Below are positions 4,504 through 15,006 of a DNA stretch of 55,870 nucleotides, piece by piece. The DNA comes from Candidatus Delongbacteria bacterium. GTDB taxonomy: Bacteria > UBA4055. Each line of letters starts with the position of its first letter. Position 1 is the first letter of the stretch. Made by a program: the position numbers and the translations under genes. Under the pieces are notes generated by a model. The model was not told the DNA's origin and did not search any database. It saw only the letters and a list, made by a program, of their open reading frames with translations. The stretch spans positions 1-55,870 of the forward strand of contig JAFGVM010000005.1 in assembly GCA_016937995.1 (NCBI GenBank), in the 5' to 3' direction.

Positions 4504-7047
4504 TTATTTCAACAATGTCATTTTTTTCATCTGCTTCAAACCGCTTTCAGTTTCTATACCGTAATAATATATTCCTGAAGAAAGCTCTTTCCCTGAGTTC
4601 CAGTTGATAGTATAATTACCGGAATTGAATTTTTTATTATCAAAGAGTGTATCTACTATTTCACCTTTGATATTATAAATGTGCATAGAAAGCTTATCAT
4701 TATTGATCACAGAGAAATTTATCGTAGTTACAGGATTGAACGGATTAGGGTAGTTCTGCTCCAATTGTAAATTATCAACTGTAAACTGTCCATTGTCATC
4801 AATGCCTGTTGAAGTTGAAAATACCAGCTCTTTAAAAGCTGAGATATTCTTATCATCAGTAACTCTGAACATCAGGTCCCAGCTTGTGTCACCGGTGTTA
4901 ATTATACCGCTGAAAATACCGTTACTGCTTATTTCAATTCCGTACGGGTATGGATCAGTTGAAAAAGAAGTTTTCATATCCGAAGGATCATCTGTGTTTG
5001 AAAGTTCAGAAATTAAAGCACTGATAACTGATCCGTTCGATATACCGGCACCCCATTCAATACCAGTCGTAAAACCGCTTCCATAGAAAAATTCAATTTT
5101 TCCGTCTGAGTGCAGTTTGGCAGTAAAATCAAGATCAACTTCAGGCAGATCGAACATTGATGTGATCCATCTTACAAGTACATAATCTTCATTCTTGTAA
5201 TAAAAGATCCCTTCACCATCCTCCGGGTAGCTCATCAGGTCAGTAACGTAAGGTGCGATAGTTTTGGTTTCCCTGATGTCAGATTCATCTCTGACATCCT
5301 CGAAGTTCTCACCAAAAGAGATGGATCCGTTAGTTGAAACATTTATGTAGTCATATGTCTTGCCAAAGAACGGGAAAGCAAAATCAAGCTGAATAATAGC
5401 ATATCCGTCATCATCATTTGACATAGTTAACTCGATAACATCATCGTAAGGAAATGGACTTTCATTTGTTACTTCGGAATAATCTATCAGCATATCCCAG
5501 TAATACGGCGGAGTACCGTTCTCAGCGGTTAATGTATAAGAATATTCCTGTCCGGGTGCTGCAATAGGAAGATCAGTAGTAGTAATGTTTGCTTTATCGA
5601 AAGTCGCTGAAGCATCAACATAGGCATAAGTAGTTACACCATTAATGATGGCAACACCTGTTTGAGAACTCGGAGTTTCAGTTCCTTCCTCGTCAACAAT
5701 AGCAAAAGAAGCAATGTTACCTCTGCCTCCAGCGTTGCCGTTATGTTCAACGCAAATGAAAAATCTAGCGTCAGAATCTGAATTTGCATAGCTGAGCAAA
5801 GGAGTTATATCCAATCCTAATTCAAGAACATCTCCGTCACCTTTCATACCCAGTCCGTCACCACCCTGAAAATTAAAATGTGGAAAAGTGATAGTATGTT
5901 CAGGGACAGTTGCTTCAAGATCATTTGCAATACCAGCCATTATCTTTATATCGTTCCTTTCACTGTAATTGATAGTTGCTTTTAATTTAAGGGTCGGAAC
6001 AAAAGATTCTCTGGTCTTTATAGAATGAGCGATATTATTATAAATACCGCCGTCCGCCAAACTTTGTGCAAGAGTTCTATACATAACCCAGGATTTACCG
6101 GAATTTGCCCAGGAAGTACCCCATGAATTCGCCATTTTAAGACCGCCTATCTCCCAGTCACGCATATCTACAATACCATCGCCTGTAATATCTATATCAT
6201 TCGTATATTTGCCATCTGTATTGTAATCCCATCGAATAGAGTCATTGTATCCTATGAATGTCATAGCATGATTCACGTTCTCATCCCATTTTAATACAAC
6301 AGATTCACCTGGACAGAATGAGTTCATAGGTAGAATACCTCTCTGAAAAGTATAGCTGACACCAGCAGCAAATACTGCGATCCCGCCTGCTTCAGACCCG
6401 TCACAATGGTCATTCATCCATTGTTTAAGAACTTCAAGACCCTCGGGAGTGTTCAACGGCATTGCTATCTGCTCAAGAACACGGTTATTCATACCGTTTT
6501 GATATTTTGAATATCCGTCCATCCATAATGAATTTGCAAGAGTGTAATCTGTTGAAGGCCAAAGCATTCCACCATAATCAGTAACGTTGGGTATTCCACT
6601 TGCTTTGATTATATCCCATCCGTCCCAATGCCAAGAACCGTTACCGCCGCTTCCGCTGTTAAGGAAGTTATATGTGTAGTGGGTCGGGTATTGATTGTCG
6701 GTTATATCGGCAGATGTACCTCTTTTAAAATTCTGTTCGTAAGTATAAGTATACCCAACACCGCTTGCCTGTCCGCAACTTCCTCCAACCTGATTGAAAA
6801 TAGGGCGGAAATAGGGTTGGGTCGAGTTGTCAACAGTATAAGGCAGCTCTTCTTTTCTGTTCTTGTATTCATCAGGAAGCAGCAGAACCGGTATTTCATC
6901 AATTTTTTTCTGCTGTTCCGGAGTCAGAGGAGAGACACCGCCTGATATCCATGGTTCACCGTTGGGATCAGGATTATTATTGATCAGTTCAGCCGAGACA
7001 AATGAGAAAAGCAGCAATGTCGTTAGAACCAAGATTAATTTTTTCAT
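4504..7047 (-). CDS. Secreted papain-like (C1A) cysteine protease with type IX sorting domain
   Basis: An 847-residue secreted protein, the last gene on the minus strand of a four-copy array. In order: signal peptide (1-19); a conserved DPNGEPW segment near 26-33; a papain-like catalytic domain with oxyanion Gln86, Cys91 (QVGGSCGQASG), His260 (VNHAMTFIGY) and Asn307 (NSWG); a two-loop calcium-type insertion between His and Asn (274-297); a beta-rich region (about 350-480); an Ig-like He_PIG-type domain in two halves (492-520 and 700-747) around a nidogen-like segment (about 530-690); and a type IX secretion sorting domain (762-847, YPNPFNP, ending in a Lys-rich MKKMTLLK). It probably acts outside the cell or on the surface. 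AGGAG precedes the ATG. Substrate unknown. Confidence 0.85.
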   Translation of the reverse strand: MKKLILVLTTLLLFSFVSAELINNNPDPNGEPWISGGVSPLTPEQQKKIDEIPVLLLPDEYKNRKEELPYTVDNSTQPYFRPIFNQVGGSCGQASGVGYTYTYEQNFKRGTSADITDNQYPTHYTYNFLNSGSGGNGSWHWDGWDIIKASGIPNVTDYGGMLWPSTDYTLANSLWMDGYSKYQNGMNNRVLEQIAMPLNTPEGLEVLKQWMNDHCDGSEAGGIAVFAAGVSYTFQRGILPMNSFCPGESVVLKWDENVNHAMTFIGYNDSIRWDYNTDGKYTNDIDITGDGIVDMRDWEIGGLKMANSWGTSWANSGKSWVMYRTLAQSLADGGIYNNIAHSIKTRESFVPTLKLKATINYSERNDIKIMAGIANDLEATVPEHTITFPHFNFQGGDGLGMKGDGDVLELGLDITPLLSYANSDSDARFFICVEHNGNAGGRGNIASFAIVDEEGTETPSSQTGVAIINGVTTYAYVDASATFDKANITTTDLPIAAPGQEYSYTLTAENGTPPYYWDMLIDYSEVTNESPFPYDDVIELTMSNDDDGYAIIQLDFAFPFFGKTYDYINVSTNGSISFGENFEDVRDESDIRETKTIAPYVTDLMSYPEDGEGIFYYKNEDYVLVRWITSMFDLPEVDLDFTAKLHSDGKIEFFYGSGFTTGIEWGAGISNGSVISALISELSNTDDPSDMKTSFSTDPYPYGIEISSNGIFSGIINTGDTSWDLMFRVTDDKNISAFKELVFSTSTGIDDNGQFTVDNLQLEQNYPNPFNPVTTINFSVINNDKLSMHIYNIKGEIVDTLFDNKKFNSGNYTINWNSGKELSSGIYYYGIETESGLKQMKKMTLLK

Positions 7048-7279: not shown

Positions 7280-9754
7280 TTATTTAACGTTGTCAGCTGT
7301 GACGTAGTAAAAGTATTTATCACCAGTTAGAATTATATCCGAATCGCTGAATGTATTAGTCAAGGATGTACCGACCTCAGTAAAAACACCATATGGATCG
7401 TTAGATCTGTAAATATGGTAGAGATTTGCAGAAGGTACAGCATCCCAGTTCAATAAAATCGAATTACTGGAAACTGATATTATGAAGTTGGAAGTTGGTT
7501 CTATTATTACACCGCTACTCAGTGAAAAAGGGATTACTTTTATTGCTGAAATATTATTTCCGTCAGTAACTCTAAAGTTGATATTCCAAGTGTTATCAGC
7601 ACCGGTTAATGTTCCGCTGAAAATTCCATCTTCACTTAAAGCCATTCCATAAGGAAAATCAGTAGTTGAGAATGAAGTTTTCAGACCACTTGGATCATAT
7701 GTATTTGCAATTTGAGATATTTTACAATTTGCTGAATTACCGTTTGATACCCCGTTTGACCATACAAGTCCGGGAGTCATGTTATCACCGTAGAAGAACT
7801 CTATGTCTGAATTAGCAAATATTTTTGCAGCAAATTCAACATTCACTTCAGGAATGCCGCAAAGAGAGGATTTCCATCTTATGGTCAAATGATCCGAATC
7901 CATGAAGTAAAATATTCCTTCACCGTCAGCTGGATAGCTTTGCAGGTCTTGTGAATATGCAGTGATAGTCTGAGTTGAAACTATATCACCTTCATTTCTT
8001 ACATAAACGAACTTGTCTCCAAAAAGCAATGAACCGTCAGTACAAACAGTAATATGATCGTAAAGTTTACCATAGAATGGAAAGTCGAAGTCAAGATCAA
8101 TTATAGCAATTCCATCGTCATCATTTGTCATAGTTAACTGATCAACAGCTTCTGTAGGAAAAGAATTGGAATTGGCTGTTTCTGTATAATCAAAAATAAC
8201 GTCCCATGAGTAAGGAGGAAGACCACCTGTAACTGCAAAACTTTCTGAGTACGGGATCGACGGCAGTGCGTCAGGCAGGGTGGATGTACTTATTAGCGGA
8301 GCATCAAAAGTAACGGAGGTGATCACAGACATGTAGGTGATATCATTCGTAATTATAGCTTTATTTGACTCAGTACTTGTATACTCTACAGAGTCATTGT
8401 CTTTTACTCCCATTGAAACGATGCTGCCAGATCCTGATCCACCTGCATCTTTCTGTTCAACTCCGATAAAGAATTTTGCAGGTACACCGCTTTCAACATA
8501 GCTGAGAAGTGGACTAATATCAAGTCCAAGCTCAAGTAGATCTACAGTTCCTTCCATACCTATATTATCTCCTCCTTGATATGCAAAATATGGGAATGAT
8601 ATAGAATGTTCAGGTTCAGTGTCTGAAGTATTACCTGAAACACCAGCAGTTATCTTAAGCTCTTTACGGTCAGAATAACTTATACTTGCTTTAAGTTTTA
8701 ATTGAGGATAGAATGATTCTTTTGTTCTCATCGTATAGACTGTATTTCCGTTTATACCTCCTTCCGAAACATCTAAAGCTAAAGTTCTGTACATGACCCA
8801 TGCTTTACCTCCGGTACCCCATGATGTGCCCCATGAATTGACCATAAGAAGTCCTCCGATCTCCCAGTCCCTCATATCAATTATACTGTCACCGTTCAGA
8901 TCAATATCGTTAGTATATTTTCTATCTCCATTGTAATCGTAACGTATAGTATCACTATATCCTACAAAGGTCATTGCATGATTGACGATCGGATTCCAGT
9001 TGGCAACAACATATTCACCCGCATGAGGAGTATTGTTCTTTAAAGTTGCAAGTGTCCAACCGGTAACTCCTGCCGAGAAATTAACTATACCACCTGCAGC
9101 AGAACCATCACAATGATCATTAAAATATTGCTTTAAAGTTTCAAGACCTTCAGGTGTGCCGACCGGAATAGAAATAACTTCATCAACTCTATTGTTCATT
9201 CCTGTTTCATAGATATCAAATCCGTCCTGCCATAAAAGATTTTGCGTTGCCGGATCAGAAGATGCCCACAACAATCCTCCGTAAGTCGTAACATCAGGTA
9301 TACCACCGTTCTTGGCAATATCCCATCCCTGAAAATATGTAGAACCGTTAGCACCGCTTCCATCGTTAACAAAGTTATAAGTAAAATGACTTGGGAATTG
9401 GTTGTCTGTTATGTTTGCACTGGTTCCTCTCATGAAATTCATTTCATATGTAAAATTATATGCAATACCACTTGCCTGGGCACAACTTCCACCAACCTGG
9501 TTGAAGATAGGTGGAAAATATGGCTCATTTGTATTGTCAATTTCAGTTACAAGTTTTTCTTTTCGGTTCTTGTAAAACTCAGGTAAGGTTAATTTGGGTA
9601 GAGCATCAATTTTTTTCTGTTCTTCAGGAGTAGGTTGTTTCCAGCCTCCAGCATACCATGGTTCTCCATTAGGGTCAGGGTTTAAGTTTACCATCTCTGC
9701 ATTTAAAAATACAGACATGAGAATAATTGTAAGGAACATCGAGATTTTTTTCAT
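7280..9754 (-). CDS. Secreted papain-like (C1A) cysteine protease with fibronectin-like C-terminus
   Basis: An 824-residue paralogue of the 4504-7047 protein. Signal peptide (1-19), DPNGEPW segment, catalytic Cys91 (GGSCAQASG), His259 (VNHAMTFVGY) and Asn306 (NSWG), and the two-loop calcium-type insertion (DYNGDRKYTNDID, then DLNGDSIIDMRDW) are all present. The Ig-like halves and nidogen-like insert follow. The protein ends differently: instead of the type IX sorting domain it has about 70 residues of fibronectin type III-like sequence (ILLNWDAVPSANLYHIYRS, ending YFYYVTADNVK). How it reaches the outside beyond the Sec pathway is therefore unclear. Start ATG at 9754 with AAGG upstream; its own terminator follows. 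Confidence 0.82.
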   Translation of the reverse strand: MKKISMFLTIILMSVFLNAEMVNLNPDPNGEPWYAGGWKQPTPEEQKKIDALPKLTLPEFYKNRKEKLVTEIDNTNEPYFPPIFNQVGGSCAQASGIAYNFTYEMNFMRGTSANITDNQFPSHFTYNFVNDGSGANGSTYFQGWDIAKNGGIPDVTTYGGLLWASSDPATQNLLWQDGFDIYETGMNNRVDEVISIPVGTPEGLETLKQYFNDHCDGSAAGGIVNFSAGVTGWTLATLKNNTPHAGEYVVANWNPIVNHAMTFVGYSDTIRYDYNGDRKYTNDIDLNGDSIIDMRDWEIGGLLMVNSWGTSWGTGGKAWVMYRTLALDVSEGGINGNTVYTMRTKESFYPQLKLKASISYSDRKELKITAGVSGNTSDTEPEHSISFPYFAYQGGDNIGMEGTVDLLELGLDISPLLSYVESGVPAKFFIGVEQKDAGGSGSGSIVSMGVKDNDSVEYTSTESNKAIITNDITYMSVITSVTFDAPLISTSTLPDALPSIPYSESFAVTGGLPPYSWDVIFDYTETANSNSFPTEAVDQLTMTNDDDGIAIIDLDFDFPFYGKLYDHITVCTDGSLLFGDKFVYVRNEGDIVSTQTITAYSQDLQSYPADGEGIFYFMDSDHLTIRWKSSLCGIPEVNVEFAAKIFANSDIEFFYGDNMTPGLVWSNGVSNGNSANCKISQIANTYDPSGLKTSFSTTDFPYGMALSEDGIFSGTLTGADNTWNINFRVTDGNNISAIKVIPFSLSSGVIIEPTSNFIISVSSNSILLNWDAVPSANLYHIYRSNDPYGVFTEVGTSLTNTFSDSDIILTGDKYFYYVTADNVK

Positions 9755-9883: not shown

Positions 9884-12391
9884 TTATCTTTTAGAATTAT
9901 CTGCTGTTACATAGTAGAAACATCTTTCTTCATTTGAAAAATCCATATCTTCATATGAAAGTGAAGTTGCAGTTCCGATCTTTATAAATCCCTGATAAGG
10001 ATCTGTAGATCTGTAAATATGGTACATAGTTGCACCGGGGACAGCATCCCATCTTATGACAGAAGAAATTTCACCTGTCTCGGTTCTAAGGTTATTTGGA
10101 GATGCTAAAGTCATTGAAAGATCGACAATTGAAAAAGTAAGCTCTTTAACTGCAATCAGGTTATTACTGTCATTTGCTCTGAATATAATATCCCAGGTAG
10201 TTTCATCTGTAGGAGAAATATTGCCGTTGAACACACCGTCTTCGCTAAGTTCTATACCATACGGATACGGTGGTTTTATGAAAGATGTCTTAAATCCTGA
10301 TGGATCCCAATAATTAAAGACCTTCGTGATATATGTGCTTAAAGCAGTACCGTTAGAAATTCCTGACGGGTAATATTTTCCTGCAGTAACATCTCCGTAA
10401 TAGAACTCAATTGTTCCATCAGAAAATAATTTTGCGGCAAAATTAAAGTATGATGTTGGTGGTACACCTCCACCTCCGCCACCATTTCCATTTCCGGTGC
10501 CGCTGGTACCTGTCCCGGTAATAGATGTATCCCATACTATAATTACATAATTATCATTTCCAAAGTACGTTACATCAGCTTTATCAAAGTCAGCGGCACA
10601 TGGTGCAATTGTTTTTGTTTTACTTATATCATCAGCGGTTTTAACAGATTCGTAAATACCGTTAAAAGTGATCGCACCGTTCGATGTAACAGTTATTGAG
10701 CTGTATAATTTGTCAAAGAAAGGGAAAGGGAAATCAAGATTAATAATACCGTATCCGTCATCAGAATTTGTCATACTGATTTCTTGAAATGTTTCAGATG
10801 GGAATATAGTTGTGATTTCTGTTTCAGTATAGTTAATTACTATATCCCACTTATATGGAGTTGTGCCTTTTTCTGCAGTCAGGGTTTGATTGTATGTTTC
10901 ATTTGGTACAGCAGCCGGCAGATATTCAGTTGTGATCTTAAACGGTTGAGGCATAAAAAGACCAACATGAGTAGTGTTGTTTGATTTTATATCAACATTT
11001 TTTTGCAGGCTAGTGAATTCTGTGCCTTCATGATCAATTACAGAAAAAGAAATTACTTTCCCGATACTCAATGTATCCCCGGTGTGTGTTACACTGAGAA
11101 ATAAAGTTCCGCCTTCTCCTTCCGGGATAAGATCGAGCAAATTACTGATATCCAGTCCAAGTTCAATAATATCAGAGGATCCTTCTATTCCGATTGAATC
11201 TCCTCCCTGATAGTTGAAAAGAGGGAATCCTATAGAGTATCTTGGTTCAAATGCATTTGGTTCCTGAGATATACCCGCAGTAATTCTTATATTATCTCTG
11301 TCACTGCATGCAATAGTTGATTTTAATTTCAGAGTTGGTTTAACATTTTCTTTTATCCTGACCGTATGGCAGATGTTATTATAAATACCGCCGGAGTATA
11401 GATCCTGAGCAAGAGTTCTGTACATGACCCATGATTTACCTTCATCGGCCCAGTTTTCTCCCCATGAATTGACCATAAGAAGTCCTCCGATCTCCCAGTC
11501 CTTCATATCAACAATACCATCACCGTTAGTATCAATATCATTGGTATATTTTCCATCCCCGTTATAATCATACCTTATAGAATCATTATATCCAGCGAAT
11601 GTCATAGCATGGTTTACAGATCTATCCCATCTGATGATAACCGCCTCTTTCGGGCAGAAGGAATCCTCAGGTAAAACTGTCCTTTCATATGTCCCGTAAA
11701 CTCCTGCTGAAAAAACTGCTATCCCTCCTTCAGAAGATCCGTCACAGTGGTCATTCATCCATTGTTTAAGGACCAGAAGGTCTTCAGCGGTTCCAATAGG
11801 TATTGCAAGCTATTCCAGGACACGGTTCTCCATTCCGCTTTGATATTTGTCGTATCCGTTCATCCAGAGTTTGAACATAAGATCAGGATCTAAAGAAGGC
11901 CAAAGCATGCCTCCGTAAGTCGTTACATTAGGGCATCCGCTTGATGAAATTATATTCCATCCGTCAAAATACCAAGACCCCCACGATCCGCTTCCATGGT
12001 TTAAAAAATTGTAGGTATAATGAGTTGGAAATTGATTCTCAGGTACATCGGCTGAAGTTCCTTTCGAAAAATTGTATTCGTAGGTGAATAAATATCCAAC
12101 ACCGCTTGCCTGTCCGCAACTGCCGCCCTGTTGGGAAAAAACAGGTCTGAAGTATGGCTGCAATGAATTATCGACAGTATATGGAAGTTCAACTTTTGAA
12201 TTCTTATATTTATCAGGAAGATTTAATCTAGGTATGGCTTCGATCTCTTTTTGTTTTTCTACTGAAATAGGGCTCAAACCTCCGGAAAATAACTGAACAC
12301 CTTCAGTATTCGGGTCAATATCAAAAAATTCTGCTTTTGAAATAATTGCATAGATAAATACCAACAAAATTATCAATGATCTTTTCATCAC
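9884..12391 (-). pseudogene. Papain-like (C1A) protease gene split by an in-frame TAG
   Basis: The third member of the array. Codons on both sides of 11810-11812 are in the same frame and align with the paralogues without gaps, but codon 194 is TAG. The sequence reads NRVLE, stop, LAIPIGTAEDL, where the 4504-7047 gene has NRVLEQIAMPL with CAG, so one C-to-T change explains it. The stop separates Cys92 (GGSCGQASG) from the catalytic His (VNHAMTFAGY) and Asn (NSWG). The first part keeps a signal peptide; the second part (11758-9884) has none. The full frame would give 834 residues plus the stop codon. It ends in a fibronectin-like domain, lacks a sorting domain, has a Gly-rich linker near 10480-10510 and a degenerate DPN segment. 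TAG is a normal stop elsewhere here (ends of the 159-575 and 16568-17776 genes), so general recoding is unlikely. Confidence 0.85.
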
Positions 12392-12468: not shown

Positions 12469-15006
12469 TTATTTGATCATCGTCATTTTTTTGATCATTT
12501 TATGACCTCCGTCAGAAGTAATTTTATAAAAATATATGCCTGATGAAAGATCTAGTTGAGGATCCCAGGAAATTGAATGTTCTCCTTTTTTTAATAGTTT
12601 ATTATCGATCAAAGAAGTTACCAGTTCACCTTTTAAATTGTATACTTTAAGGGTTATTATATCATCATTCTTCAGTGTGAACCTAATGTTTGTTGTTGGA
12701 TTGAACGGATTTGGGTAATTCTGTTCCAAATGTAAATTATCAACGGCTTGATGTTCATTGCCGGTTATTCCGCTTGAAGTAAAAAGAGAAAGTATTTTTG
12801 TTGAAGAAAATCCGTTCCAGTCAGTGATCTTAAATTCGAGATCCCAGCTTCTTTCTAGATCATTTGATAAAATTCCAGATAATAGTCCCTGGTCATTCAG
12901 AATTAAACCGAAAGGATGGTCCGGATGTATGAATGTTGTTTGAAGGTCTGAGGGATCTTCAGAATTGGAGCTTGAAGAGATAATAAAATTTTCAGAACTA
13001 CCGTTTGAAATCCCGCTTACCCATGAGTTGTTGACAGGCTGATCATCCGTATGATAAAATTCTATTGTACCATCATTATAAAGTTTGCAGATAAAGTTAT
13101 ATTTTGCATCTTTATCCATTCTTAATGCAGTTCTCCATAAAATGGTCACATGGTCAGGATCCATAAAATAAAAAGTGCCTTCATTTAATGTCGGATCTGC
13201 CATAAATTCAGCAGCATGAGGTACAATAACTTTGTTCTCAACGATATCGATATCATCTCTTACGAATTTATAGCCCTCTGATAAAGCTAAATAGCCGTCA
13301 GTGCAAACAAATATCGAATCGTAAAAATTTCCGTAGAACGGGAATTCGAACGGTATTGCTAAAGGCAGTACATCATTGTCGTAATTATGTTCGGGAATGA
13401 GCTCTATAAGATCTTCAACTATCAACGGGTCATTATTTACATTTTCGGAATAATCTATCAGCCAGTCCCATTGTAAAGGTTCCCTTTCTGCTCTTGCAGT
13501 TAGCTGAAACAAATAAAATTCATCTATAGAAATATCAGGTAACGAAGATGTAGTTATATTTGGTGTGTAGTAATAGATGTTAGCTACTGTACTGATATAG
13601 GTCGTATTATTGTTATTTATCACTGTTGAGTCAGGATAGCCTGCTGTTAAATTGCCGTATTTATCTTCAAGTTTCATTGATAAGATATTTCCGTTTCCTG
13701 ATCCGTCAGGATCATCTTCATCTATACACAGAAAAAATTTGGCATAAGATCCGCTCTCCATGTGGACAAGAAGAGGGGTTATATCAAGACCTATATTAAT
13801 GTATGTACTGTCTCCGGTCATAGGATTGGGACCTCCGGAATTATTATACATCAGAAATTCAATAGTGTGTTCGGGTATTAATGAACTTGTGTCTGTTGAT
13901 ATGCCGGCATATATTTTTAACTTATCCCTGAAGTTATGTTCTATCTCAGTATTTATCTTAAGTAAAGGTTCATAGTTTTCAAAAACTTTGACAGTATTTG
14001 TTCTCTGGGCCCAGATGCCTCCTTCTGTATGATGATAACCGAGAGTGTTGTACATTACCCACGCTTTTCCATAGTTTCCCCATCCGGTACCCCAGCTGTT
14101 CACCATTAGAAGACCGCCTATTTCCCAGTCACGCATATCTACAATATCGTCACCGGTTATATCAATGTTATTAGTGAATTTCCCGTCACCGTTATAATCG
14201 TATCTTATAGAATCGTTATATCCTGCAAATGTCATAGCGTGATTTACTGATGTATGCCATTTTGTGATAACCATTTCATTCTCACATTCAGTTCCTGCAG
14301 GAAGGTATCCGGTCTGCCAACTTCCGTACACTCCTGCGGCAAAAGTTATAACTCCACCTTCAGCAGATCCATTTCCATGATCGTTCAACCAGTGTTTTAG
14401 AATATCCAGACCCTCAGGTGTGTCTACAGGAATTGTAACTACTTCCTGAACTCTGTTCTGCATAGCGTTCACATATTTGTCATATCCTGACATCCAGATC
14501 TTTTCCATCATTGAAGGATCGGAAGTAGGGACCATTCCACCGTAATCTGTACTGTAAGGTATACCGCTTCTCATTGCGATCTCCCATCCGTCGAAATAGG
14601 AAGAACCGTTAATGCCGTCACCATCATTCAGGAAATTGTAGGTGTAATAAGTTGGATATTGATTCCGATTGAAATTACCGTTCTCTCCGCGCATATAATT
14701 CATTTCATATGTAAAATTGTATCCAATCCCGGCAGCCTGACCGCATTCATTGGCGTATTGTGTAAAAACAGGTCTGAAATAAATTTTATAAGAATTATTT
14801 ACTTCGTAAGGAAGATCAGTGTTCTTACTGGATCGAGTTAACTGTAATTTCGGATAAGCTTTGATCACTTCCAGCTGGTCATCTGATGGTATTACCCAGC
14901 CTCCACTTATCCACGGCTCCCCGTTTGGATCAGGATTGTGGTTGATGATCTCAGAAAAAAGAATTGAGGCAAAGATAAAAATATGTAGAAAATATATCAA
15001 TTTCAT
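12469..15006 (-). CDS. Secreted papain-like (C1A) cysteine protease with type IX sorting domain
   Basis: The fourth, first-transcribed member of the array, 845 residues from the ATG at 15006. The frame is open to a TTG at 15060, but MKLIYFLHIFIFASILFS is a clear signal peptide and makes 15006 the better start. Catalytic Cys88 (ANECGQAAG), His256 (VNHAMTFAGY) and Asn303 (NSWGTGWG) are present, with the calcium-type double loop between His and Asn. The segment before Cys (TQYANECGQ) differs from the GGSCGQ of the others. Ig-like halves and the nidogen-like insert follow, and the protein ends in a type IX sorting domain (LEQNYPNPFNPTTNIRF, ending MIKKMTMIK). Probably exported and anchored or released at the surface. 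Substrate unknown. Confidence 0.84.
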   Translation of the reverse strand: MKLIYFLHIFIFASILFSEIINHNPDPNGEPWISGGWVIPSDDQLEVIKAYPKLQLTRSSKNTDLPYEVNNSYKIYFRPVFTQYANECGQAAGIGYNFTYEMNYMRGENGNFNRNQYPTYYTYNFLNDGDGINGSSYFDGWEIAMRSGIPYSTDYGGMVPTSDPSMMEKIWMSGYDKYVNAMQNRVQEVVTIPVDTPEGLDILKHWLNDHGNGSAEGGVITFAAGVYGSWQTGYLPAGTECENEMVITKWHTSVNHAMTFAGYNDSIRYDYNGDGKFTNNIDITGDDIVDMRDWEIGGLLMVNSWGTGWGNYGKAWVMYNTLGYHHTEGGIWAQRTNTVKVFENYEPLLKINTEIEHNFRDKLKIYAGISTDTSSLIPEHTIEFLMYNNSGGPNPMTGDSTYINIGLDITPLLVHMESGSYAKFFLCIDEDDPDGSGNGNILSMKLEDKYGNLTAGYPDSTVINNNNTTYISTVANIYYYTPNITTSSLPDISIDEFYLFQLTARAEREPLQWDWLIDYSENVNNDPLIVEDLIELIPEHNYDNDVLPLAIPFEFPFYGNFYDSIFVCTDGYLALSEGYKFVRDDIDIVENKVIVPHAAEFMADPTLNEGTFYFMDPDHVTILWRTALRMDKDAKYNFICKLYNDGTIEFYHTDDQPVNNSWVSGISNGSSENFIISSSSNSEDPSDLQTTFIHPDHPFGLILNDQGLLSGILSNDLERSWDLEFKITDWNGFSSTKILSLFTSSGITGNEHQAVDNLHLEQNYPNPFNPTTNIRFTLKNDDIITLKVYNLKGELVTSLIDNKLLKKGEHSISWDPQLDLSSGIYFYKITSDGGHKMIKKMTMIK

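Follow-up and report, generated by a model that had tools for sequence, protein, structure and literature searches.

Four tandem protease genes and their catalytic domain

The window analyzed here is a stretch of 55,870 nucleotides from a Candidatus Delongbacteria genome (contig JAFGVM010000005.1). Between positions 4504 and 15060, its minus strand carries four tandem protease paralogues, A, B, C, and D, each of which starts with a signal-peptide-like sequence and also encodes a catalytic domain and beta-rich domains. The main features of copy A, together with the sorting tail of copy D, are as follows.

4504..7047, minus strand: protease copy A, 847 amino acids, with a predicted papain-like domain, beta domains, and a type IX secretion (T9SS) C-terminal tail (open reading frame; Pfam; AF2 model of residues 20-480)
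6775..6777, minus strand: predicted catalytic Cys91 of copy A, with Gln86 ahead of it (Cys in 100/100 and Gln in 99/99 ungapped sequences; papain fold)
6268..6270, minus strand: predicted catalytic His260 of copy A (His in 102/102)
6127..6129, minus strand: predicted catalytic Asn307 of copy A (in the family, Asn 89/102, Asp 8, Gln 5)
4519..4752, minus strand: T9SS sorting tail of copy A, residues 766-843 (Pfam Por_Secre_tail PF18962, E 6e-9)
12484..12717, minus strand: T9SS sorting tail of copy D (PF18962, E 2.8e-10)

By Pfam, copies A and D thus end in the C-terminal sorting domain of T9SS cargo, and copies B and C are without Por_Secre_tail. Copies B (7280-9754, minus strand) and C (9884-12391, minus strand) have mutually similar fibronectin-like ends in place of this tail, and a similar end is found at the terminus of L004, another C1 protease of the same genome. 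L004 is one of several further large C1 proteases of this genome (L001-L004, on contigs C41, C30, and C72), which are of the ordinary PF00112 type and have no calcium loops; by eye, L003 ends in a T9SS-like tail. Copy C contains an in-frame TAG at codon 194 (11810-11812, minus strand), where copy A has a Gln codon, and its frame is otherwise open; a recent pseudogene, a sequencing error, and strain variation are alternative explanations. In copy A, residues ~560-730 form a beta-rich segment apparently inserted into an Ig-like domain, the flanks of which read by eye as one Ig domain; Pfam names neither the segment nor the surrounding domain. A phage or plasmid origin was rejected because tblastn gave no match in either collection, and a role in defense because PADLOC gave none.

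The preliminary description of this locus had proposed a papain-like catalytic domain, and structure prediction agrees. An AF2 model of copy A residues 20-480, based on an alignment of 92 relatives, had a mean pLDDT of 94.6 and a pTM of 0.93. The top Foldseek matches of this model were cathepsins and procathepsins, papain, xylellain, and Cwp84, with a best E value of 7e-9 to procathepsin K and a TM score (target) of up to 0.76 to cathepsin K. The reading as a papain-type enzyme with the triad Cys91/His260/Asn307 holds because of this model and these matches: the predicted fold is that of papain, and Cys, His, and Asn follow in the order characteristic of C1A peptidases, the first two of them invariant. 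Proteolytic activity is predicted from fold and triad. In copy A, Gln86 lies five residues ahead of Cys91; in papain, the corresponding Gln is six residues ahead of the catalytic Cys.

Sequence profiles recognize this domain poorly. None of the Pfam, NCBIfam, and PHROG profiles identified the catalytic domain of the window copies with confidence, the PF00112 model gave no match for them, and a phmmer search of the PDB returned no match. Among the 92 relatives, PF00112 matches five weakly; the loop-less relative L180 passes at 27.1 bits. The only PDB matches of a profile of the 92 members were marginal ones in the region of the NSWG segment, with ervatamin, xylellain, and ficin.

An acidic hairpin insert between His and Asn

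An acidic insert between the papain His and Asn had been described for every copy, and it is indeed present in all four paralogues. In copy A it lies between H260 and N307, where positions 6154-6231 (minus strand) translate to WDYNTDGKYTNDIDITGDGIVDMRDW; the motif first described needs to be extended to an invariant Glu299 (6151-6153).

6151..6228, minus strand: acidic hairpin insert of copy A, D274-E299, DYNTDGKYTNDIDITGDGIVDMRDWE (translation; AF2)
8861..8938, minus strand: the same insert in copy B, DYNGDRKYTNDIDLNGDSIIDMRDWE (translation)
11492..11569, minus strand: the same insert in copy C, DYNGDGKYTNDIDTNGDGIVDMKDWE, in the gene broken upstream by the TAG (translation)
14122..14199, minus strand: the same insert in copy D, DYNGDGKFTNNIDITGDDIVDMRDWE (translation)

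The family was found in Delongbacteria, Bacteroidota, Cloacimonadota, Marinimicrobia, and Fibrobacterota. A scan of genome contigs, among the seeds of which was DM[RK]DWEI, gave matches in Delongbacteria, Cloacimonadota, Bacteroidales and other Bacteroidetes, Lutibacter, Neomarinimicrobiota, Chlorobiota, and Fibrobacterota. Because this seed would make conservation taken from the scan alone circular, the search was repeated with a profile (A3) of the N-terminal half of the domain, which ends ahead of the catalytic His and contains no loop residues, although it was itself built from two-loop members. Hits picked by this profile give the same picture of the loops as the seeded scan. All hits together, including those of the N-half searches, comprise 168 distinct hairpins, about 149 with two loops, 7 with one, and 12 with none, after adjustment of the classes by eye (L147, L053, and L213 are counted as two-loop; L213 has Asn for Asp at loop-2 position 1).

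The domain is present in 9/13 genomes of the window's own phylum. L067, at 83% identity over the domain, is among the nearest relatives. With the N-half profile it was detected in 24/168 genomes from the phylum of genome G016 and in 19/125 from that of G018. It occurred in only 1/396 genomes drawn evenly from the phylum of G013, yet in 9/9 of G013's own family. The family is patchy overall and common within some lineages.

Conservation was assessed in 143 aligned two-loop hairpins of 32 residues each. In loop 1, Asp1 (D274 in copy A) and Asp5 (D278) are present in 143/143, Asn3 (N276) in 142/143, and Thr9 (T282) in 140/143. In loop 2, the counts are 142 for Asp1 (D286), 121 for Asn3 (Thr in 21), 142 for Asp5 (D290), 110 for Asp9 (Asn in 28), and 143 for Asp12 (D297). 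Loop 2 is followed by Trp in 131/143 and then by Glu (E299) in 143/143. Asp1 and Asp5 of both loops, Asp12 of loop 2, and the Glu (142-143 of 143) are more constant than the catalytic Asn (89/102, the remainder Asp or Gln), and the spacer positions of both loops vary. In copies B and D, R, S, or D stands in for Gly6 of a loop, and copies A and D have Thr at loop-2 position 3, replacements that may weaken the predicted calcium sites. In L042 and L190, loop 2 is about 8-10 residues longer (DWAGGIDSNGVNIPDGKVDMKDWE; DIGNDAGVIGTKDNKVGLADWE), so that the putatively nested loop itself contains an insertion.

The ligand spacing is that of an EF-hand loop, as the preliminary description had noted. A strict EF-hand consensus pattern, which we take to correspond to PROSITE PS00018, matched 97/145 two-loop hairpins, every time at the loop-2 position. 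Elsewhere in the same domains it matched once in 50,068 residues, and among shuffled hairpins in 0.3%; the EF-loop motif of the insert is thus far above chance. The further likening of the loops to those of dockerins and EF-hands holds for spacing and does not extend to the structural context. DSSP on the AF2 models gives a strand, the loops, a three-residue helical turn, and a second strand, with a pLDDT over the loops of about 95-96 both in the whole domain and in a 66-residue fragment. Loop 2 and the one-loop relatives have the full 12-residue arrangement with ligands at positions 1, 3, 5, 7, 9, and 12, and loop 1 has it only if E299 is position 12; the flanking E and F helices are absent from the models. 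Because the predicted context is strand-loop-loop-turn-strand, we rejected both a classic helix-loop-helix EF-hand and a dockerin, the latter also for its weak profile scores. Dockerin type I shares the loop consensus DxNxDGxIxxxD, but its paired 22-residue loop-helix segments form a domain of their own, whereas the loops here are adjacent within one hairpin. The Dockerin_1 model reached even E 0.1 in only 3/92 members. Foldseek with the 66-residue loop fragment gave, among the matches listed, papain-family hairpins at E > 0.1 and no EF-hand, a result that speaks neither for nor against a metal-binding geometry. The insert contains a Dx[DN]xDG loop with a later acidic ligand, as in calcium loops outside EF-hands. 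By its motif and the predicted strands, it is a beta hairpin with Dx[DN]xDG loops at its tip, which would bind calcium.

An acidic beta-turn cap or linker that binds no metal would be in keeping with the weak Pfam scores: on the loops or close by, the EF-hand and dockerin models score no better than E 0.04-0.16. Such a cap would, however, hardly account for the exact EF-loop periodicity, nor for ligand positions far more conserved than the spacers across phyla and in one-loop forms, and we regard it as very improbable.

Nested or successive loops

The preliminary description read the insert as two loops in succession. The acidic double-loop insertion stands, but the loops appear, from the alignments and the model, to be nested, with loop 2 inside loop 1 and loop 1 closed by Glu299. 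The elements of this assignment in copy A are as follows.

6196..6228, minus strand: first part of loop 1, D274-x-N276-x-D278-G-x-x-T282-N-D284, positions 1-11; position 12 is proposed to be E299 (conservation)
6154..6195, minus strand: putative nested 14-residue segment, I285-W298, which contains loop 2 (exact length difference of 14 residues from the four 18-residue one-loop hairpins)
6157..6192, minus strand: loop 2, D286-x-T288-x-D290-G-x-V-D294-x-x-D297 (conservation)
6151..6153, minus strand: Glu299, proposed position-12 ligand of loop 1 (conservation; one-loop and loop-less relatives)

Four one-loop relatives have 18-residue hairpins with one canonical EF-hand loop (L207, DFDGNGQFTDDE; L160, DLNRDGKIDERE; L164, DVNQNGSIDDGE; L187, DINNNGLVDRGE), after which come one residue and then Gly-Gly or Gly-Ala. 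Two-loop hairpins exceed this length by exactly 14 residues and share the same Glu-x-Gly-Gly/Ala end, and the 12-residue EF loop of the one-loop relatives sits exactly where the two-loop forms have 26 residues. Alignment of the ends puts Glu299 at loop-1 position 12, and loop 2 would therefore be an insertion between positions 11 and 12. After removal in silico of hairpin residues 17-30, 143/143 two-loop members are left with a 12-residue loop that ends in Glu; excision of 15-28 or 16-29 does equally well as 17-30, because positions 10 and 11 are free. Three further members, L172, L174, and L191, lack loop 2 and retain loop 1 and the terminal Trp-Glu. Glu occupies the E299 site in all one-loop forms and is missing in 11/12 loop-less members, and none of the 168 hairpins has loop 2 without loop 1. 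In the AF2 models, the first strand stops right before D274 and the return strand begins right after E299. The two residues would thus be expected to lie opposite one another at the hairpin base, as an EF loop requires of its positions 1 and 12.

Alternatively, the insert could hold two separate calcium loops in succession, loop 1 being closed near its own end by N283, D284, or a shared D286, and E299 belonging to loop 2 or serving as a plain structural residue. D286, at loop-1 position 13, is nearly invariant too (142/143), and in other proteins there are binuclear sites of the Dx[DN]xDG type that share ligands (PMC3123361). Against such an arrangement, loop-1 position 12 in the two-loop hairpins is a hydrophobic Ile, Leu, or Val and position 11 varies among D, N, and H; moreover, members without loop 2 retain the Glu beside the returning strand, four of them making an exact 12-residue loop with it. 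We therefore consider two successive loops doubtful.

In a tree built without the hairpin, the one-loop L207 is sister to the two-loop L213 (99% SH-aLRT), the loop-less L163 is sister to the two-loop L162 (98), and L191 clusters with L208 and the loop-less L180-L183 (100). This tree, made by a quick method, is unrooted and gives no direction of change. Loop states are mixed across it, and they have therefore changed several times. We somewhat favor, on balance, a true loop-within-loop calcium site in the catalytic hairpin, the inner loop of which has been repeatedly lost or gained as a 14-residue unit.

A proposed calcium module in the catalytic hairpin

The reading that we prefer, with a probability of roughly 0.6, is a nested two-ion calcium module that stabilizes the His-Asn hairpin of a secreted papain-like protease; calcium binding, the ligand assignment, and the stabilizing role are predictions. 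The module would sit at the tip of the beta hairpin linking the His-bearing to the Asn-bearing strand. Loop 1 would bind its ion through D274, N276, D278, the backbone of residue 280, T282 (directly or through water), and E299. A self-closing 12-residue loop 2, inserted between loop-1 positions 11 and 12 with one flanking residue on each side, would use D286, T/N288, D290, the backbone of residue 292, D294, and D297. Because an EF-type loop has its two ends near each other, insertion of loop 2 could leave Glu299 facing D274. The protein is predicted to be exported, with a type IX tail in at least two copies, and would thus work where calcium is available. With calcium plentiful outside the cell, two ions would lock the hairpin and keep His260 and Asn307 in register, and the enzyme would fold, or remain stable, only there. 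Ions that lock this connection between the His and Asn strands would stabilize the active-site geometry or delay folding until export. The lineage also includes loop-less relatives (12/168 hairpins), and some of its proteases thus do without the loops.

Calcium might instead switch activity on and off, as has been reported of the CHAP lysin LysGH15 (PMC4022735) and the fungal protease MOA (PMC4764322). Both have a papain-like fold with calcium in the catalytic domain, calcium-dependent activity, and sites near the active groove, and the insert described here links the strands of the catalytic His and Asn. The LysGH15 site, D45-D56, spans the catalytic Cys54 (PMC4022735), and that of MOA is binuclear and located at the S2 subsite (PMC4764322); neither is a His-Asn hairpin with the motif of the insert. 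The retention of the loops where the catalytic Asn has become Asp or Gln speaks against a switch. Calcium is presumably fairly constant around secreted enzymes of free-living bacteria, and if the hairpin is oriented like the falcipain arm, its tip is directed away from the cleft. A switch thus seems unlikely to us, and a structural or folding role of calcium fits better than a regulatory one.

About 22 members from Bacteroidales and relatives (L101-L143, L216-L236) have Asp, Gln, or Glu for the catalytic Asn (FTDSY, MVQSYG), and nearly all of them retain both loops. Their activity is possibly altered or lost.

Falcipains, which are C1 proteases, likewise have an insertion between their catalytic His and Asn, a 14-residue hairpin that captures hemoglobin and for which no calcium ligands are described in the work cited (PMC6411711). 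By analogy, the insert could be an arm for a substrate or partner, with calcium merely stiffening it. Such arms usually vary with the partner, whereas variation in this insert is confined to the spacers and spares the metal-ligand positions, and we judge a binding arm to be improbable, more so than a switch.

Peptidases of family C1A (papain, cathepsins, PF00112; bacterial xylellain, 3ois, and Cwp84, 4ci7/4d59) resemble the window copies in predicted fold, in the order Gln-Cys, His, Asn, and in the NSWG motif after the hairpin; they differ in that PF00112 does not recognize the window copies. Ordinary PF00112 proteins of Delongbacteria and Fibrobacterota contributed 26 His-Asn hairpins, none with an EF-type loop; a pattern match in L264 proved spurious on inspection. 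Cwp84 holds calcium in a separate lectin-like domain (PMC4089489). Outside this fold, PMC3123361 describes a DxDxDG loop grafted between two beta strands of CD2 that sufficed for a calcium site, and a 25-residue, four-calcium insert that Tk-subtilisin needs for folding. These are similar in having EF-type spacing between beta strands or an insert of ~25 residues in a protease, but they belong to other folds; the binuclear sites of that source share ligands, and the part consulted offers no loop-inside-loop arrangement.

The preliminary description knew of no C1A protease with such an arrangement, and our search of the PDB and the open-access literature, with few subscription papers, likewise found none. 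The consulted parts of two broad surveys of papain-like enzymes (PMC10318531, PMC10380794) make no mention of such an insert. Calcium loops, papain-like proteases, and inserts at the His-Asn hairpin are each already known; their combination and the nested order appear to be new.

The insert marks a secreted protease family that is missed by Pfam, NCBIfam, PHROGs, and PDB sequence searches. If our reading is correct, it would add to the papain family a lineage with a calcium module as its catalytic hairpin, overlooked by the standard family profiles searched. The forms with no loop, one loop, and two nested loops would provide a natural series for studying the gain and loss of calcium loops in enzymes, and the hairpin itself would offer a ready design for calcium-stabilized cysteine proteases.
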